Made by a program: the position numbers and the translations under genes
In this document: positions 2,211 through 38,375 of the stretch, piece after piece
Numbering within the stretch: the stretch's first letter is position 1
Layout: each line of letters begins with the position of its first letter
Source of the DNA: Clostridia bacterium
GTDB lineage: Bacteria > Bacillota > Clostridia > Acetivibrionales > DSM-27016
DNA length: 64,000 bases
Assembly: GCA_026414765.1 (NCBI GenBank)
Contig: JAOAIJ010000039.1
Location: 1-64,000, forward strand
Reading direction: 5' to 3'
Notes under the pieces: generated by a model
What the model was told of the DNA's origin: nothing
Databases searched by the model: none
What the model saw: only the letters and a program-made list of their open reading frames with translations

Positions 2211-3839
2211 ATGAAAATTTCAGGAGCACAGGCAATGATTAAGGCATTGGAACTTGAACAGGTTGAAGTAATATTCGGCTATCCCGGAGCGGCAATTTGT
2301 CCATTTTATGATGCCTTGTTAGAGTCAAAAATCACTCATATTCTTACAAGACAAGAGCAGGGAGCGGCACATGCTGCAAGTGGATATGCCAGAGTAACCG
2401 GAAAGGTAGGCGTTTGTGTTTCAACTTCCGGCCCGGGTGCTACCAATCTTATTACCGGAATAGCAACAGCATATATGGACTCCATACCTATGGTTGCCAT
2501 TACGGGGCAGGTAGCAACTGAACAGATTGGAAAAGATGTTTTTCAGGAAGCAGATATCACCGGGGCAACAGCTCCATTTTGCAAGCACAGCTATCTGGTG
2601 AAAAAAGCGAAGGATCTGCCCAGAATCATCAAGGAAGCTTTTCATATTGCTTCTACAGGCCGGCCAGGTCCGGTTGTAATTGATATACCCATCGACGTGC
2701 AAACAAAAGAAATAAAATTTGAGTATCCCGAAGAAGTTGATATAAAGGGCTATAAGCCTACGTATAAAGGACATCCTGTGCAGATCAAGCGGATTGCCGA
2801 TGTAATTCAAAAGGCCAAAGCTCCTGTTATCATTGCAGGAGGTGGCGTGGTCAATGCCAATGCATCCGAAGAACTTGTACGGTTATCGGAAAAATGCAGT
2901 ATACCTGTCGCAACTACCCTGATGGGGATCGGTGCAGTGCCTTCCGCTCACGAGATGCATATCGGAATGATAGGATCTCATGGGGTTTATACGGCAAATT
3001 ATGCACTTAACAATGCGGATTTGCTTATCATTATGGGTGCGCGTGTTGCGGACAGAGCCATGAGCACTGCAAATAAAATTGCGCAAAAGGCACACATTGT
3101 CCATATTGACATCGACCCTGCTGAAATCGGTAAAAATATTGAAGCAGCAACCCCTGTTGTGGGAGATGTCAAACTCATCTTAAAAGATTTGGTGGAGATT
3201 ATAGCAAAAGGGGATGTAGAACCTTGGGCAAACACCATTAAAAAAATTAAAGCAGAGAAAACCCAGAAAAACCTTGAGGAAGGCGGGGAAAGCTTTGTTA
3301 GGCCCCAATACCTGTTCTCAATACTTTCGGAGGTTGTTGGCGAGGACACCATTGTTGCTACCGAAGTGGGACAAAACCAAATATGGGCAGCTAACTACTA
3401 TAAGGTAAAGAACCCAAGGACATTTATTACCTCCGGCGGTATGGGGACCATGGGATATGGACTTCCCTCCGGAATCGGTTCAAAAATCGGAGCTCCGGAT
3501 AAAAAAGTAATTGTTGTGGCGGGGGATGGGAGTTTTCAGATGTCCATGCAGGAATTGGGAACCATGAAGCAAAGCAAAGTGGATGTAAAAATTATTGTTT
3601 TTAACAACTCAAGGCTGGGTATGGTAAGAGAGCTGCAAAAAAACAAGTACTGCGGCCGGTACTCCCAGGTCTATTTGGAAAGCAATCCTGACTTTGTAAA
3701 ATTAGTTGAGGCATACGGTTTTAAAGGAGAAACCATCCGAAGCAATCAGGAAGTCAAAGGCGCACTGGAAAGAATGCTGGCAGACGATGGGCCATACCTT
3801 TTGGAATGTATCGTAGATCCGGAAGAGCCTACGTTATAA
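2211..3839 (+). CDS. ilvB: Acetolactate synthase, catalytic large subunit
   Basis: This ThDP enzyme condenses two pyruvates (valine/leucine branch) or pyruvate with 2-oxobutyrate (isoleucine branch). The three expected domains are present: an N-terminal ThDP-binding part with GYPGAAI and the catalytic Glu in TRQEQGAAHAA; a central FAD/Rossmann-like part with IIAGGGVV; and a C-terminal ThDP/Mg part with GDGSF followed by NNSRLGMVRE, the GDG-to-NN motif. The length of 542 aa is typical of clostridial forms. GGAGGAGG precedes the ATG by 9 nt. It is the first gene of the operon, under T-box control, with its regulatory subunit ilvN 105 nt downstream. Confidence 0.96.
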   Translation: MKISGAQAMIKALELEQVEVIFGYPGAAICPFYDALLESKITHILTRQEQGAAHAASGYARVTGKVGVCVSTSGPGATNLITGIATAYMDSIPMVAITGQVATEQIGKDVFQEADITGATAPFCKHSYLVKKAKDLPRIIKEAFHIASTGRPGPVVIDIPIDVQTKEIKFEYPEEVDIKGYKPTYKGHPVQIKRIADVIQKAKAPVIIAGGGVVNANASEELVRLSEKCSIPVATTLMGIGAVPSAHEMHIGMIGSHGVYTANYALNNADLLIIMGARVADRAMSTANKIAQKAHIVHIDIDPAEIGKNIEAATPVVGDVKLILKDLVEIIAKGDVEPWANTIKKIKAEKTQKNLEEGGESFVRPQYLFSILSEVVGEDTIVATEVGQNQIWAANYYKVKNPRTFITSGGMGTMGYGLPSGIGSKIGAPDKKVIVVAGDGSFQMSMQELGTMKQSKVDVKIIVFNNSRLGMVRELQKNKYCGRYSQVYLESNPDFVKLVEAYGFKGETIRSNQEVKGALERMLADDGPYLLECIVDPEEPTL

Positions 3840-23962: not shown

Positions 23963-24084
23963 CTATGTCATCAAAGTGAATATGCTTGAGGGTTTTATGG
24001 TATAATTATGGAGCGTATATTCATTCATCACAGTTCAACCTTAACTTGCGTATTCCATACGCTTCAAGCCTGGGAGGCTCAAAA

Positions 24085-26511: not shown

Positions 26512-29500
26512 ATGAAAAAGGTAATTTGTATTATTATTGCCCTGGTTTTTTTAATGTCTACAAATATGGCATTTGCAAAAAACTATAAGGGCAATAACGG
26601 AAGAGGAAAGAGCAATTCAAAGCACAGTTCAAATTCAAACTATGTTAAGGAGATAAAAAAGCTTAAAGACTTGCTTAAAAAGTATGTTGAGTATGAAAAG
26701 GATGACGAAGACGAGGATGAAGACATTGATGAAAAGATAGATGAAATCATAGATGAAATACTTGACTTAAAAGATGAGTATAATGATGAATCAGATATTG
26801 TTTTCATAAACGGCGTAGAGTACTCCTGCAGCCAGGAGCCTATAATAAGACATGGAAACATACAATTACCGACAAAACCGGTTACAGAAGGATTGGGAGC
26901 AAAAGTTGACTGGAACTCAAAGACCAAGACAGTGACAATAACAAAAGGCAATATTACCCTGGCTATGAAGCTTGATAAGAAGACAATAACTATTAATGGT
27001 ATAGAAGTGAAAAGTGATGTATTAAAGAGTTCTAAGAATGGCAATACAATACTATTGATTGAATTCATCGCACAGGTGCTTGGATATAATGCGGAAGTAG
27101 ACGAAGATTCCAGTGTTGTTATCATAGACGATGAAGACAGTACAAGTATTAACGATAACATTACAGGAAAAGGACTGAATCAGTTTGATTACAGGGGTAA
27201 ATGGGTTTATGCATTAAAGAGCGGGGCATTCCTGGATGATGTTCACTATTCAACCAATAAAAATGCATACTTTAATGTCAGATTCAGCGGCTCAAAGATA
27301 AAATTATATGGTTCAACTGCTTCAAACTATGGTATAGCTGCAGTTTCCATTGATGGCGGGTCTGAAGTGAAGGTAGATTTTTATTCAAAAAGAAGTGCAA
27401 ATGACGTTCTACTTTATACAAGTCCAACACTATCCAGTGGTCAGCATACCTTGAAGATCCGTGTAACTGGTACAAGAAATAAAAAATCCGGAAATACGGC
27501 GGTAGTAGTGGATAGAGTGGTAGTACCCGAAGATGGGAATATGCCCCAGGCATCAAATCTGGCTTTGAACAAGAATGTACTCTGTGATAGTGTACAGACA
27601 GAAAATACTGCCGCTAAAGGAAATGATGGCAATACAGCAACACGCTGGTGTGCAGCCGATGATTCAGTCAATCACTGGTGGACCGTTGATCTGGGCAATA
27701 ATTATAATATCTCTGGAACCGAGGTTATATGGGAAAAAAGTAATAAGATATATAAATATAAAGTTGAAGTATCTTCTGATAATTACAATTGGACGCTAAA
27801 GGTTGATAAAACTAATAATTCAAGTATACAGCAAACACAGACTGACAGCTTCAATGCAAATAGTGCTCGTTTTGTAAGAATTACTGTTACTGGGCTGGAG
27901 CCAGGCTGCTGGGCAAGCTTTTATGAATTTAGGGTTTTTGGTACAGGGATAGATACCCAGGCTCCGACTACTCCTGCCACTCTGACGGCAACTGCACATG
28001 CTTCCAGTGAAGTTGACTTGAACTGGAGTGCGTCTACAGATAATGTAGGAGTAACCGGCTATAAAATATACAGAAACGGTACACATATTGCTACAGTTAC
28101 CAGCGGCACTTCATACAGGGATAGAGGGTTGAGTGCAGGTACAGTTTATGTTTATTCTGTTTGCGCATATGACGTAGTAGGCAACAATTCAAGCCAGAGT
28201 TCGGCTGTAGCGGTTACTACTCCGTTAAGTAACGGTAGTGGAACAGGACTTTTAGGGGATTATTTTAATAATAAGGACTTATCGGATCTGAAAGCTTCAA
28301 GGGTAGACAATACAATAAATTTTGACTGGAACAATAACAGCCCGTACACAAATATGGGATCCGACACGTTCTCGGTGAGGTGGACGGGGCAGATACAGCC
28401 GCTATTTACTGAAGACTATACTTTCTATACAAAATCCGATGATGGTGTCAGACTATGGGTTAATGGGCAAAAGCTTATAGATAACTGGACAGAACACGGT
28501 TCAACAGAAAACAGCGGTAGGATTGCACTCACAGCAGGACAGAAATATGATGTGAAGTTGGAATACTATGATAATACAGGAGAAGCTGAAATAAAACTGT
28601 CATGGTCAAGTAAAAGCCAGCAAAAGCAGATAGTGCCGCAAACCCAGCTTTACCCTGCAGCATTGGATACGCGGGCTCCTACTGCGCCTGCAGCGCTTAC
28701 AGCTTCTTTAATTACCACAGATAAAGCATATTTGTACTGGACAGCTTCAACTGATAATACTGGGGTCGCCGGATACAAAATTTACAGAAACGGTAACTAT
28801 CTGGCATCTGTATCTAATGGTACAACTTATACGGACGCAGGGCTCATGGCAGGAACAGCATATGTATATGCAATATCGGCCTATGATGCTGCAGGAAATA
28901 TTTCAAATCAAAGTACTCCTGCTATAGTTACTACAGCCTCAAATAATGGAAATGGTACAGGTCTGAAGGGCGAGTATTACAATAATATAGACTTTACTGA
29001 GCTTAAAGTTGCACAGGTAGACAGTAGTGTTAACTTTGATTGGGGTAATAATGCTCCACATTCTGCTATGAATTCAGATACTTTTTCTGTAAGATGGACG
29101 GGGCAGATACAACCGCTATATACAGAAAACTATACTTTCCATACCAATTCTGATGACGGTATCAGATTGTGGATTAATGGCCAAAAGGTAATTGACAACT
29201 GGACAGATCACAGCTTAACTGAAAATACCGGTACAATTTCTCTCACTGCTGGACAGAAATACGAAATAAAGACCGAATACTATGATAAGGGTGGAGATGC
29301 TGTAATCAAGCTGCATTGGTCTAGTCCGAGCCAGACAAAACAGATTGTGCCGAAAAGCCAGCTTTATCCGTCTGAAATAGACACTCAGGCGCCATCTGTT
29401 CCTTCAGGCTTGACTGCTTCAGCAGTATCTTCAACACAGATTAACCTGAGATGGAATTCTTCTACAGATAATGCCGGCATAGCCGGGTATAAAATTTATA

Positions 29501-30066
29501 GAAACGGTACTCATATAGGCACTGTTACGAGCGGAACGTCATATTCAGATGGCGGACTTACTGCAAATACTACTTATGTATACACAATACTTGCATTTGA
29601 TGCTTCAGGAAACAGCTCTGCACAATCTGCACCCATAGTTGCAGCTACGCAACAATCCTCCGTAATAAATGTTGCTCTAAACAAGGCAGCCAGTGCAGAT
29701 AGTCAGGAAGCAGCAAATCCTGCATATAAAGGAAATGACGGAAGTACATCTACACGCTGGTGTGCGGCAGATGGGAGCTTTAATCACTGGTGGAAAGCAG
29801 ATCTTGGTGAGTTGTATAATATTACAGGCTCTGAAATTACATGGGAACTGAGTGGAAAGGTGTATAAGTATAAGATAGAAGTATCGCAGGATGATAGAAA
29901 CTGGACACTGGTATTGGATAGAACAAATAACACAAGTACACTCCAAACTCAGGCAGAAGGTTTTACAGCAAACTCTGCAAGATATGTACGCATAACTGTA
30001 ACCGGGTTTGATTCCGGCTGCTGGGCGAGTTTTTCGGAATTTAAGATTTTTGGGAGTGTTGCGTAA
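26512..30066 (+). CDS. Large secreted multidomain protein: Cu-amine-oxidase-N-like, two F5/8C, three fn3, two PA14
   Basis: The 1184-aa product starts with a signal peptide (cut near AFA-KN, residue 23), then a Ser/Asn/Lys linker and an acidic Asp/Glu run (about 65-95). Next come a copper-amine-oxidase-N-like domain (about 98-205), a beta-sandwich domain (about 215-345), F5/8 type C discoidin (350-478), fn3 (483-573), PA14 (about 578-720), fn3 (725-815), PA14 (822-960), fn3 (965-1055) and a second F5/8C (1058-1184). The PA14 units share SDTFSVRWTGQIQPL, and the F5/8C units share STRWCAAD and FNHWW-like motifs. There is no dockerin, SLH domain or catalytic domain, so I infer a glycan-binding surface protein, probably SigI-controlled. 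AGGGGG precedes the ATG. Confidence 0.85.
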   Translation: MKKVICIIIALVFLMSTNMAFAKNYKGNNGRGKSNSKHSSNSNYVKEIKKLKDLLKKYVEYEKDDEDEDEDIDEKIDEIIDEILDLKDEYNDESDIVFINGVEYSCSQEPIIRHGNIQLPTKPVTEGLGAKVDWNSKTKTVTITKGNITLAMKLDKKTITINGIEVKSDVLKSSKNGNTILLIEFIAQVLGYNAEVDEDSSVVIIDDEDSTSINDNITGKGLNQFDYRGKWVYALKSGAFLDDVHYSTNKNAYFNVRFSGSKIKLYGSTASNYGIAAVSIDGGSEVKVDFYSKRSANDVLLYTSPTLSSGQHTLKIRVTGTRNKKSGNTAVVVDRVVVPEDGNMPQASNLALNKNVLCDSVQTENTAAKGNDGNTATRWCAADDSVNHWWTVDLGNNYNISGTEVIWEKSNKIYKYKVEVSSDNYNWTLKVDKTNNSSIQQTQTDSFNANSARFVRITVTGLEPGCWASFYEFRVFGTGIDTQAPTTPATLTATAHASSEVDLNWSASTDNVGVTGYKIYRNGTHIATVTSGTSYRDRGLSAGTVYVYSVCAYDVVGNNSSQSSAVAVTTPLSNGSGTGLLGDYFNNKDLSDLKASRVDNTINFDWNNNSPYTNMGSDTFSVRWTGQIQPLFTEDYTFYTKSDDGVRLWVNGQKLIDNWTEHGSTENSGRIALTAGQKYDVKLEYYDNTGEAEIKLSWSSKSQQKQIVPQTQLYPAALDTRAPTAPAALTASLITTDKAYLYWTASTDNTGVAGYKIYRNGNYLASVSNGTTYTDAGLMAGTAYVYAISAYDAAGNISNQSTPAIVTTASNNGNGTGLKGEYYNNIDFTELKVAQVDSSVNFDWGNNAPHSAMNSDTFSVRWTGQIQPLYTENYTFHTNSDDGIRLWINGQKVIDNWTDHSLTENTGTISLTAGQKYEIKTEYYDKGGDAVIKLHWSSPSQTKQIVPKSQLYPSEIDTQAPSVPSGLTASAVSSTQINLRWNSSTDNAGIAGYKIYRNGTHIGTVTSGTSYSDGGLTANTTYVYTILAFDASGNSSAQSAPIVAATQQSSVINVALNKAASADSQEAANPAYKGNDGSTSTRWCAADGSFNHWWKADLGELYNITGSEITWELSGKVYKYKIEVSQDDRNWTLVLDRTNNTSTLQTQAEGFTANSARYVRITVTGFDSGCWASFSEFKIFGSVA

Positions 30067-34969: not shown

Positions 34970-36763
34970 TTACTGCCCTTTCGTTACAGGATTCAAATGG
35001 ATATACTCCTTTGCAGTTTTCATGCGCGCAGACAGGTTTTTTCCTGCCAGACATACAAAACTGCAACTGCCACAGCCCATACACTTTTCAGCGTGAAGTG
35101 ATTTTGCTTCCTTAAAACGTCCGGCATCAACCAGATGGGCGATTTCATTAACCTTTAGGCCGGCGGGGCATCTTTCGACACAAAATCCGCATTTTGAGCA
35201 TAAGACGGATTCCTTATAGTTTGGGAAGTTGCCTACTGCTATAAAATTGACGGATTTATCAACTATATCTTCATCACAAACACTTTTTGACTGCATCAGG
35301 CCTCCACCACAGAAGGCATGTCCGCTACCGGGGTATACAGAAGCGGCTACATCGCGGATTTTTGTTCCAAGTCTTACTTTCACTATCTGCCGGGACATAT
35401 TCCTGATATCTGCAAGAGTAAGAAAGCGTGAATCCGCTTTCTTGTTTTTGCATACCGCTTCATAAATGTAAAACAAGGTTTGTACATTGAGAACAAGAAT
35501 ACCTGATTTGGCAGGAATTTCATTATGGGGTATGGTTTTATCCAATACTGTTTTTATTAAAAGTCCTTCTGCTCCCACAGGATAGTAACCGGGTACCCTA
35601 TGTATCTTCAGATCCTCAGGCATAAGCAAGCCCTTTGCATCTTTTACGGCAAGCGTAACAGATGCAAAGCTTTCACATTTACAGACAAGTTCTATACCCT
35701 TACATATTTCTTCCGGATACTGTCTTAACAGCCATTTATCATGTATTAATCCAGGGTCACATTCAACGCCATTTATAATAAGGTGCTTTTCAGGAGCATC
35801 TGAGTCCATGACAGTCCTGATTTTCTTGTATACAGGGAAGGCTGCCCCCCCAAAACCAAAGACTTCATTAGCTTCGATGCGCTTAAGAATAGTGTCCTTC
35901 GAATCGGAGACGACATTATCCTGGCAAGGATCTTCCTCCCGGACCAAATCCTGAATATGTCCTTTATTTTCAGAGAAGGATATGTATTTGTTTATATTAA
36001 AAGGTATATATAAAGAATCATTAGAGGTTTTATCAAACTTATCCAGGGCATATGACACAATATTTACCCCGAGAATACCTGCAGCTAATGCAGTAGTAGT
36101 ACCAAAAAAGTATACAGGCAGGAATCCTGCTGCGAGACCCGATATAGCTCCTAGTAAAGGACGCATTGTAGTAGTAACCGGATCTGTTATTACCACACAG
36201 CCCCAAAAGAATATACCATAGGAGATAATTGCAGATATGCTTAACTCCTGATTAAAAAGCAAAGCTGTAGCCATGCCTGCCATAAAGCTTATTGCGGCAA
36301 ATGGTCTGAACCTTACAAAGGGCAATGAAAGCAGTATTGCAGGTATTAGAATATATGAGGGCTTAAAGGAAGCAATACCTATATCAAATAGAAGGCTCAT
36401 TAGTAATAAGCCTGTTATTGCGGGATTTATAGGGTTTCTACCGGTTCCGCCCCAAATATGCTTTCCTATCAGGAGAGCAGCGGCCGCACCGAAAAGTTGC
36501 CCCAAAAGGGGAACTTCCGGTGCCAGAATCTGCAGAACGGCTGCTGAAACAGCAGCCGAAACTGCACATGTTGGTTTTTTATAGCGTACAATATTAATAA
36601 CCGCATCCAGTACCAAGCTAAACAGTAAGACTGCCAGGAAGCTTAGAATATTCTTTGGTGAATCAATCCATAATGGTGACAAATATAAGATCAAAACCAC
36701 AAAAAGAGCGGCCATAACATGCTCGTTCGACCATTTTGCTCTTACAAGCGGAAATGTTTTCAT
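34970..36763 (-). CDS. RnfD-RnfC fusion: membrane flavoprotein-like domain joined to NADH/Fe-S subunit
   Basis: Residues 1-245 are a polytopic NqrB/RnfD-like domain with GGTGRNPINPAITG (105-118) and ITDPVTTTMRPLLGA (192-206). Residues 270-597 are RnfC-like: FGFGGAAFPVYKK (302-314), NGVECDPGLIHD (331-342), an SLBB-like part, and two ferredoxin clusters CxxCxxCxxxC (C522/525/528/532 and C561/564/567/571). I see no SGAT motif for covalent FMN in the RnfD part, which is also shorter than usual, and no RnfC_N barrel. No rnfA, B, E or G is nearby. I infer a membrane NAD(P)H- or ferredoxin-linked electron-transfer protein. Its ATG overlaps the stop of the CoA-binding gene (TAATG). Confidence 0.85.
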   Translation of the reverse strand: MKTFPLVRAKWSNEHVMAALFVVLILYLSPLWIDSPKNILSFLAVLLFSLVLDAVINIVRYKKPTCAVSAAVSAAVLQILAPEVPLLGQLFGAAAALLIGKHIWGGTGRNPINPAITGLLLMSLLFDIGIASFKPSYILIPAILLSLPFVRFRPFAAISFMAGMATALLFNQELSISAIISYGIFFWGCVVITDPVTTTMRPLLGAISGLAAGFLPVYFFGTTTALAAGILGVNIVSYALDKFDKTSNDSLYIPFNINKYISFSENKGHIQDLVREEDPCQDNVVSDSKDTILKRIEANEVFGFGGAAFPVYKKIRTVMDSDAPEKHLIINGVECDPGLIHDKWLLRQYPEEICKGIELVCKCESFASVTLAVKDAKGLLMPEDLKIHRVPGYYPVGAEGLLIKTVLDKTIPHNEIPAKSGILVLNVQTLFYIYEAVCKNKKADSRFLTLADIRNMSRQIVKVRLGTKIRDVAASVYPGSGHAFCGGGLMQSKSVCDEDIVDKSVNFIAVGNFPNYKESVLCSKCGFCVERCPAGLKVNEIAHLVDAGRFKEAKSLHAEKCMGCGSCSFVCLAGKNLSARMKTAKEYIHLNPVTKGQ

Positions 36764-37188
36764 TAGCGCACACCTGCAAAGAAACCGTGAATTTTATGTA
36801 AGCCTGAACCAAAAATCATCAGAGGACAGGCAACAGCAGTTTTTATACCCATTTTATCGCATTCTGCGAGTGTATCTGCATCAGCGATTTTCTTATTATG
36901 GAACAGTATTTTCTTAACGCCGTTTTCAGCCAGTGCCTTAACTGCCTTTTTTGTATTTTCCGGGCTCAGTAGTATATATGCGGTTTCCGGTATTTTTGGA
37001 AGCTCGCTGAAATTCTTATACACTTTTACGTCATAGCTGCCGCCTGCCTTGGTATTTAGGGGATATACCTGGATACCGTTATTCGTATATGCCTGATAAA
37101 TAGTCATGCAATACTTGCTGTTTTTCTCCGAAAATCCTACAAATAGAACTTCATTGTTAGAAAAGAATTCTTTGTTTAGCTTTGTCAT
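36763..37188 (-). CDS. CoA-binding domain protein (CoA_binding_2)
   Basis: The 141-aa product is a stand-alone Rossmann-like CoA-binding domain, with VLFVGFSEKNSKYCMTIYQA, YPLNTKAGG, ETAYILLSPENTKKAVKAL and GVKKILFHN as its strands and loops. Such domains occur in acyl-CoA synthetases (NDP-forming) and as single YccU-like proteins. AGGAGGA lies 6 nt before the ATG. The stop overlaps the RnfD-RnfC start, so the two are made together. An inverted repeat TTACTAAT/ATTAGTAA (37216-37223, 37237-37244) just upstream could be an operator. Confidence 0.82.
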   Translation of the reverse strand: MTKLNKEFFSNNEVLFVGFSEKNSKYCMTIYQAYTNNGIQVYPLNTKAGGSYDVKVYKNFSELPKIPETAYILLSPENTKKAVKALAENGVKKILFHNKKIADADTLAECDKMGIKTAVACPLMIFGSGLHKIHGFFAGVR

Positions 37189-37380
37189 AAAAAATCCTCC
37201 TGTTTGGTATATATTTTACTAATGCTATATTAATATATTAGTAACAAGTCTACAACGATAATCTTGATGATTATCAGACTTCCGACTGAAGATAATGGAG
37301 TAATAGTGAACAATATATTCACATTTAGGGTATAATATGCAAGTTTCTTTGTCAATGAAAAATTTTCCTTAACGAAGAGG

Positions 37381-37408
37381 TTGTAAATACGTTTATTTTT
37401 GCTATAAT
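37381..37408 (+). promoter_or_regulatory. Promoter of tRNA-Arg
   Basis: TTGTAA (37381-37386) and TATAAT (37403-37408), 16-nt spacer, 19 nt before the mature tRNA 5' end. Confidence 0.7.
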
Positions 37409-37426
37409 ATATTGGTAGAAGTTTTT

Positions 37427-37501
37427 GTCCCGGTGGCCTAATGGATAAGGTAATGGATTCCGGTTCCATTGATGCGGGTTCGATTCCTGTCCGGGACGCC
37501 A
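37427..37501 (+). tRNA. tRNA-Arg (anticodon CCG)
   Basis: A full cloverleaf folds: acceptor GTCCCGG/CCGGGAC, D-arm GCCT/AGGT with GG in the loop, anticodon stem ATGGA/TCCAT around TTCCGGT (anticodon CCG at 37460-37462), T-arm GCGGG/CCTGT with TTCGATT loop, discriminator G and encoded CCA. It reads CGG codons. A single gene, with its own promoter and a following hairpin. Confidence 0.95.
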
Positions 37502-37505
37502 GAAT

Positions 37506-37545
37506 AGAGAAGGGTTTCAAGTTTTACGGCTTGAAGCCCTTCTCT
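37506..37545. terminator. Strong hairpin after tRNA-Arg
   Basis: AGAGAAGGGTTTCAAG (37506-37521) pairs over 16 bp, with one G-U, to CTTGAAGCCCTTCTCT (37530-37545). There is little U-tract after it. Confidence 0.7.
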
Positions 37546-37631
37546 ACTAATACCAGTTAGCAAGCCTTAAGATTCAAGCTAACCGCTTTTCCCCATATAG
37601 CCCTTGCTGTACCCTATTAATTCTGCATGAG

Positions 37632-38375
37632 CTATTCCTTGTTATTGGCTAACTCTGCAATACGCTTGTTGGCATTATCTTTAAATATGCCTCCGTGATA
37701 ACAGATAACTGTTTCTATATCAAACTGTGTGAGCTTTTCCAATGATTTTAGAGCCATATCATTATCTGAATTGGTGAATACGGGAGCGGGGGTGAGTGTT
37801 CCGCCTTCAGCAAACATACTGTCACCTGCAATAAGTATTTTAAACTGCTTAAGATAAAGGGAGATATGGCCGGGAGTATGCCCGGGAGTATGAATGATAT
37901 TGATTCCGCCGCAGACGGGTAACTCCTCATTATCTTCAATTGTTTTGTCTACGTGTGAACTATATTTCTGGTATGCAGATTTCATATTCTTGCAGAGTAC
38001 TTTAGCTTCAGGGGGAAGGGATTCAAATCGCGCTTCCATTTGAGCTATCTTGATAGGGCATTGCTCACCCTGTATATACGGCTTTTCTTCTTTATGTGCC
38101 AGTATTTCAGCTTTTATGCCGAGTTCGTTCTGAATCCCCAAAATACTTCCTATATGATCCATATCATGGTGAGTAATGATGATCTTGGTCAGATTATTCA
38201 GAGGTATACCGGCTTTAGACATCGCATCCTTGATGTGAAGCGATTGTCCAGGATATCCGGCATCTATGAGTAGTACATTGTCACAATCCCAAACTAATAC
38301 CGGATAAATAAAATTTGTTTTGCCCATGACATCCATGGAAAGTTCAAGCATCTCAACTCCATTAACTATTCTCAT
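37632..38375 (-). CDS. Metallo-beta-lactamase-fold hydrolase
   Basis: A 247-aa single-domain protein with the dinuclear metal site HHDMDH (in ITHHDMDHIGSI, about residue 68), the downstream His in HTPGHTPGHISLY, the Asp in LIAGDSMFAEGG and the last His in CYHGGIF. This is the general MBL-fold hydrolase pattern (glyoxalase II or lactonase-like); substrate unknown. The ribosome site is AAAGGGG. No close neighbour shares its strand as an operon. Confidence 0.88.
   Translation of the reverse strand: MRIVNGVEMLELSMDVMGKTNFIYPVLVWDCDNVLLIDAGYPGQSLHIKDAMSKAGIPLNNLTKIIITHHDMDHIGSILGIQNELGIKAEILAHKEEKPYIQGEQCPIKIAQMEARFESLPPEAKVLCKNMKSAYQKYSSHVDKTIEDNEELPVCGGINIIHTPGHTPGHISLYLKQFKILIAGDSMFAEGGTLTPAPVFTNSDNDMALKSLEKLTQFDIETVICYHGGIFKDNANKRIAELANNKE

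Follow-up and report, generated by a model that had tools for sequence, protein, structure and literature searches.

A single-chain RnfD-RnfC fusion paired with a CoA-binding-fold protein in Clostridia, a possible NAD(H) oxidoreductase apart from the Rnf complex

The stretch of clostridial DNA analysed here, which comprises 64,000 nucleotides and will be referred to as the window (contig C39 of its genome), carries a two-gene module in which an RnfD-like membrane half and an RnfC-like half are joined in one chain, with the gene of a CoA-binding-fold protein directly upstream (Table 1). The two halves are fused, their cofactor motifs are conserved, the outer FMN site of RnfD is stripped, and the two genes are tightly paired. 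At the level of sequence, there is good support for a membrane electron-transfer module. More specifically, we propose, giving it about an even chance, that the module is a single-chain membrane-bound NAD(H) oxidoreductase separate from Rnf, with the CoA-fold protein as its partner. The 597-residue chain and the overlap of its start with the stop of the CoA-binding gene had been noted in a preliminary description of this DNA, and coordinates and length proved correct; the partner's stop codon and the ATG of the fusion have one base in common (TAATG). Likewise, two 4Fe-4S motifs and the sequences GGTGRNPINPA and ITDPVTTT named there were all found in the fusion.

Table 1. Features of the two-gene module in the window.
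Feature	Position	Strand	Remarks
RnfD-RnfC fusion gene	34970..36763	-	597 aa; intact orthologues in 7 other genomes
CoA-binding-fold partner	36763..37188	-	141 aa; Pfam CoA_binding_2; upstream of fusion
RnfD-like membrane half, fusion residues 1-245	36029..36763	-	Pfam, model, alignments
GGTGRNPINPA motif	36419..36451	-	N113 aligns with Asn124 of C. tetanomorphum RnfD
RnfC-like half, residues 289-590	34994..35899	-	Nuo51-type FMN/NADH domain and ferredoxin domain
First 4Fe-4S motif, CxxCGxCxxxCP, residues 522-533	35165..35200	-	four Cys invariant in 8/8 fusions
Second 4Fe-4S motif, CxxCGxCSxxC, residues 561-571	35051..35083	-	four Cys invariant in 8/8 fusions

A search of other genomes for the fusion and its partner identified intact fusions, 39-57% identical to one another, in eight genomes (G000, which is that of the window, G006, G021, G024, G034, G040, G207 and Mobilitalea sibirica, G719). 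In a ninth carrier, G056, the fusion copy is broken into two overlapping frames (locus L058, 9031-10817); the partner gene upstream of it is intact, and decay or an assembly error might explain the break. The partner lies beside the fusion in all nine. The G056 copy could be taken to indicate that the fusion is an artefact, that is a frameshift, a chimera or a decaying remnant. However, with eight intact fusions of the above divergence and cofactor motifs in all of them, this is refuted for the fusion as such, and its probability is close to nil; the sequencing error that the preliminary description had reckoned with was not borne out. Within the order of the window, matches were obtained in seven of 58 genomes, counting G056. 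From the class, 391 genomes were drawn and yielded four matches, only G207 lying outside the window's order, and among 299 genomes drawn from the phylum the window's own genome was the only match; as three or four candidates were scored per listed genome in these draws, some fusions may have escaped detection. One of 22 genomes matches in the order of G207. Exact short peptides of the window's fusion were sought in about 85,000 species genomes, which yielded 11 related loci, two of which are fusions (L005 being the same contig as G024:C96); the distant matches L010 and L011 turned out to be canonical rnf operons with separate genes. The module appears to be rare.

The membrane half matches NQR2_RnfD_RnfE (PF03116) at fusion residues 4-126 (Pfam, 4.5e-13; 49.7 bits against a cut-off of 27.7), and a one-to-one profile alignment of the eight membrane halves with canonical RnfD gave an E value of 7.8e-11. 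An AlphaFold2 model of the fusion (mean pLDDT 83.5, pTM 0.69; pLDDT below 50 at residues 1-9, 247-252, 258-262 and 595-597) was based on an alignment of the eight fusions and 23 trimmed canonical rows and therefore leans on Rnf. Between residues 13 and 243 it predicts ten helices of at least eight residues as well as a short one. The membrane half had been described as shortened. It is indeed shorter, but since the model retains the ten longer helices, the trimming seems to affect the loops and not the helices. RnfD structures were absent among the 50 fold matches listed, which says nothing either way on this half.

To compare individual residues, the eight fusions and 11 canonical RnfD rows were mapped onto RnfD of C. 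tetanomorphum. In the accessible part of PMC9588780, Thr153 of this protein is the carrier of the covalent FMN, Asn124 is a residue of the inner riboflavin site, and Asn90 is named in the Na+ path. In agreement with the reported absence of the covalent-FMN motif, [ST]x[AT]T was found in the first 250 residues of none of the eight intact fusions, compared to all 11 canonical RnfD rows. The stretch holding Thr153 and Glu185 is missing from all eight, Arg130 is exchanged for a hydrophobic or aromatic residue in all eight, and Ser284 for another residue in seven; all four are retained in every canonical row. The outer linker, which is associated with RnfG in Rnf as far as the accessible part of PMC9588780 goes, is missing from the fusions as well. 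The alignments clearly argue that the outer FMN site of RnfD is stripped in the fusions. Furthermore, Asn90 is without counterpart and Ala35 of the channel is a Tyr in all eight, which would make an unchanged Na+ path doubtful while leaving room for some coupling. At the inner riboflavin site, Asn124 is retained in all eight fusions. Opposite Asp248 of the same site, two alignments placed a hydrophobic residue and no Asp, so that the inner flavin of the fusion is uncertain. The invariant D194 of the fusions aligns with Ser252, and a shift of four residues would be needed for it to meet Asp248. D194 lies three residues past the end of the matching model helix, and Asp248 two residues past it in Rnf; the two may plausibly be equivalent.

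The RnfC-like half contains an RnfC-type FMN/NADH domain and two 4Fe-4S motifs, as found in Rnf. Pfam detected Complex1_51K (PF01512) at residues 297-434 (2.1e-28) and Fer4_10 at residues 517-571. The best NCBIfam match is RnfC (TIGR01945) with 177.9 bits over model positions 105-431 of 435, which is below the cut-off of 245.95 bits; the first ~100 residues of RnfC have no match in the fusion. A fold search with the model aligned 341 residues of this half with RnfC of Acetobacterium woodii (9eri_C; Z 31.1, rmsd 3.9), and according to the model this half folds as RnfC. GxGGA, ECDPG, YPxGxE and the eight cluster cysteines are retained in all eight intact fusions. The PrdC model also matches this half (2.1e-27, below its cut-off), and PduS is presumably related to it; to our knowledge, neither PrdC nor PduS is fused to an RnfD-like membrane domain.

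When trees of the two halves were built, the eight fusions clustered together and were separated from the canonical rows (20 of RnfC and 11 of RnfD) with 100/100 support in each case and long branches. With nearby and a few other lineages sampled, these trees would fit a single old fusion. Among the carriers, the partner tree grouped G006 with G034 (86/86) and G021 with G024 and G040 (88/96), and the same two groups were obtained with the membrane half (95/82 and 92/93), support being moderate in both trees; most relations among the fusions were not resolved in the tree of the RnfC half.

As both halves are homologous to Rnf subunits and RnfA/E is present in six of the nine module genomes, the fusion might serve the canonical Rnf complex as an accessory subunit or as a substitute for one of its own. 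However, the trees set both halves apart from the canonical subunits with full support, and G021, G034 and G040, two of them rated 100% complete, possess the module with no match to RnfA/E, making such a subunit very improbable. In the window's genome, a search for a complete rnf operon elsewhere was successful, rnfCDGEAB being located on contig C19. Consistent with the earlier statement that no other rnf gene is near, it is on that contig that RnfC, RnfA/E and the top FMN_bind match are located, and contig C39 contains no match to PF02508 (RnfA/E) or PF04205 (FMN_bind). We propose that the module is separate from the Rnf complex, from which it differs in several respects: the six Rnf subunits are encoded together, whereas here RnfD- and RnfC-homologous parts form one chain, D before C, with a CoA-fold partner and no other Rnf part nearby, and the chain is without the outer covalent FMN site and the first ~100 RnfC residues.

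Among published kinds, the NQR/RNF-like system comes closest. In it, according to the accessible parts of PMC8238504 (2021) and PMC11334425 (2024), an NqrB/RnfD membrane domain that lacks the flavinylation Thr is fused to PF00175 and accompanied by an FMN-binding protein. Like this system, the module consists of a two-gene set with one chain carrying a PF03116 membrane domain and a C-terminal cytosolic NAD domain. Unlike it, as far as those parts describe it, the fusion has PF01512 and two 4Fe-4S motifs, PF00175 not being among the 14 families listed for it by Pfam up to an E value of 0.1, and the partner is CoA_binding_2 and not an NqrC/RnfG-like FMN-binding protein. Because NADH domain and partner are different, the fusion falls outside the NQR/RNF-like definition. 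The preliminary description had suggested that the module is undescribed. No description of it was found in the open-licence full-text literature, but the related NQR/RNF-like layout is in print, so that the idea of joining an RnfD-type membrane domain to an NAD(P)H domain has a precedent. In the accessible part of a 2014 paper on Nqr evolution (PMC4014512), fused or chimeric sequences were discarded from the Nqr subunit sets. A more far-reaching proposal is that the module represents a third RNF/NQR layout, in which a single chain suffices as an NAD(H) enzyme, lacks covalent flavins as well as the transmembrane iron site, and is possibly coupled to ions or to the CoA/NAD state via the partner; this we put forward tentatively, its chances being rather low.

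The same published pairs raise the possibility of an export system in which the membrane half would deliver electrons to an extracytosolic FMN-binding protein, since NQR/RNF-like proteins likewise lack the flavinylation Thr in the membrane domain and one-way outward transfer is proposed for them in the accessible parts of PMC11334425 and PMC8238504. In G207, two FMN_bind genes are located 0.8 to 3 kb upstream of the module on the same strand, and eight of the nine module genomes contain at least one FMN_bind match somewhere. Nevertheless, an export system is unlikely, as no FMN_bind gene lies beside the module in the other eight genomes (the contigs are short in G034 and end at the module in G006), no match was obtained anywhere in G034 (93% complete), and the linker associated with RnfG in Rnf is missing. 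Away from the fusion, a small FMN_bind protein adjoins an EFR1 gene in two genomes (G000:C9:124011-125682 and G207:C8:606159-607134), perhaps as a separate electron-transfer pair.

The partner was assigned to CoA_binding_2 (PF13380) with 47.9 bits (2.2e-12; gathering score 22.8), and its fold matches include 1y81, 2d5a and 1iul. The CoA_binding_2 proteins PH1109 (2d59) and 1y81 are of the same family and fold; in contrast to them, module-type partners have a conserved tail of their own, CPxMxxxxGxHxxHxFxAGV (with one residue inserted in G056), and within the order they occur only in fusion genomes. When the 58 genomes of the order were scanned with a partner profile, 209-244 bits were obtained in exactly the seven fusion genomes and no more than 73 bits in the remaining 51. 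The tight linkage claimed for the partner is clearly supported, the same subfamily occurring beside the fusion in all nine genomes. In eight of them the whole gene immediately precedes the fusion on one contig; in G024, the contig with the fusion stops inside the partner gene (a 46-residue contig-end piece, 79 bits) and a second contig starts with it, the two overlapping by 141 identical bases. G024 also contains a second copy of the subfamily (209.6 bits; L076, G024:C11, 2042-2485) with no fusion beside it, followed by what by eye appear to be an RND-type adaptor and a pump gene. The proposed link to CoA metabolism, by comparison, is not supported: the neighbours compared include no recurrent CoA enzyme, and the NADH-binding Rex is also in the fold list of the partner, though lower down (1xcb at rank 39). 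Most likely the partner binds a nucleotide cofactor, either CoA or NAD(H).

Neighbouring ORFs were compared by BLAST, which covered positions 24000 to 48000 of the window and in G034 picked a longer opposite frame instead of the partner. No acceptor gene common to all loci was detected among these ORFs. An EFR1 gene was present on the same strand within ~4 kb of the module in four of the nine genomes (G021, G024, G040 and G207), and in G040 it is the only EFR1 listed above cut-off in the genome. By chance, 0.08 genomes would be expected (P(>=4) 1.5e-6, P(>=2) 0.0026, from hand-counted totals), though the test was chosen after the neighbours had been seen. This proximity might point to an NADH:flavodoxin/ferredoxin (EFR1-type) oxidoreductase that may use or build up an ion gradient by means of its RnfD-like half. 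However, the partner tree places G021, G024 and G040 in one group, so that the cases are not independent, and no EFR1 above cut-off was listed near the five other modules (window, G006, G034, G056 and Mobilitalea), the contigs of G006 and G034 showing little. We thus regard an EFR1-type enzyme as improbable, more so than electron export.

Among the remaining neighbours there are scattered, weaker matches to ABC, TetR, helicase and kinase-like proteins, partly named by eye. TetR regulators near the module in G024 (L077, 1971-2615) and G056 (L058, 7544-8212) are 43% identical to each other, and regulation of the module by this regulator is possible. G006 and G034 have a neighbour in common (80% identity) that by eye resembles a glycosyl carrier transferase. 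Close to the Mobilitalea module, an apparent cooS and the end of an apparent metF were again recognised by eye; they did not recur at the other loci, and a Wood-Ljungdahl link was dropped for this reason. Scanning with the Rex operator consensus gave nine matches with three mismatches in the window against 10.5 expected and none in 37189-37632. Promoter-like (12 against 9.2 expected) and terminator-like signals (4 against 2.7) were near chance. With respect to a riboswitch, Rfam found only T-box and tRNA in the window; the T-box leader (1810-2054) precedes a gene (2211-3839) resembling a thiamine-diphosphate enzyme, with a weak match to the menD profile. A quinone was considered as acceptor, but menD, representing the classical route to menaquinone, was detected above cut-off in none of the nine module genomes compared to seven of 14 control genomes; UbiA matches in all nine are uninformative in this respect. 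At 26512-30066 the window encodes a 1184-residue secreted-looking protein with repeated domains that by eye appear PA14-, fibronectin- and discoidin-like.

In Rnf, as described in the accessible part of PMC9588780, RnfD and RnfC form one arm leading from the outer FMN via the inner riboflavin, the RnfC clusters and FMN to NAD+. The fusion is this arm as one chain with its outer end removed, and the simplest reading would be a membrane-bound NADH dehydrogenase or NAD+ reductase. We infer the cofactors, the direction of electron flow, the acceptor and the role of the partner as follows. NADH would reduce a non-covalent FMN in the RnfC-like half, and the electrons would then cross the two 4Fe-4S clusters to a flavin on the inner side of the RnfD-like half, from where an acceptor at the cytosolic face of the membrane or close to it may receive them. 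The fusion is without the covalent outer FMN by which electrons would reach the outside, and the CoA-fold protein, as a dedicated partner, might gate or localise the enzyme.

Through the module, one member of the CoA-binding family acquires a defined partner, several solved members of this family still being annotated as hypothetical or uncharacterized. Moreover, nature provides in the module a minimal form of one arm of the Rnf ion pump. The ion path in Rnf is unsettled, since a further mechanism via RnfA-E has been proposed (PMC12174285) beside the path through RnfD (PMC9588780), as far as the accessible parts of both papers go. A single chain without the outer flavin and the RnfA/E iron site would offer a compact test of the RnfD and RnfC parts alone.
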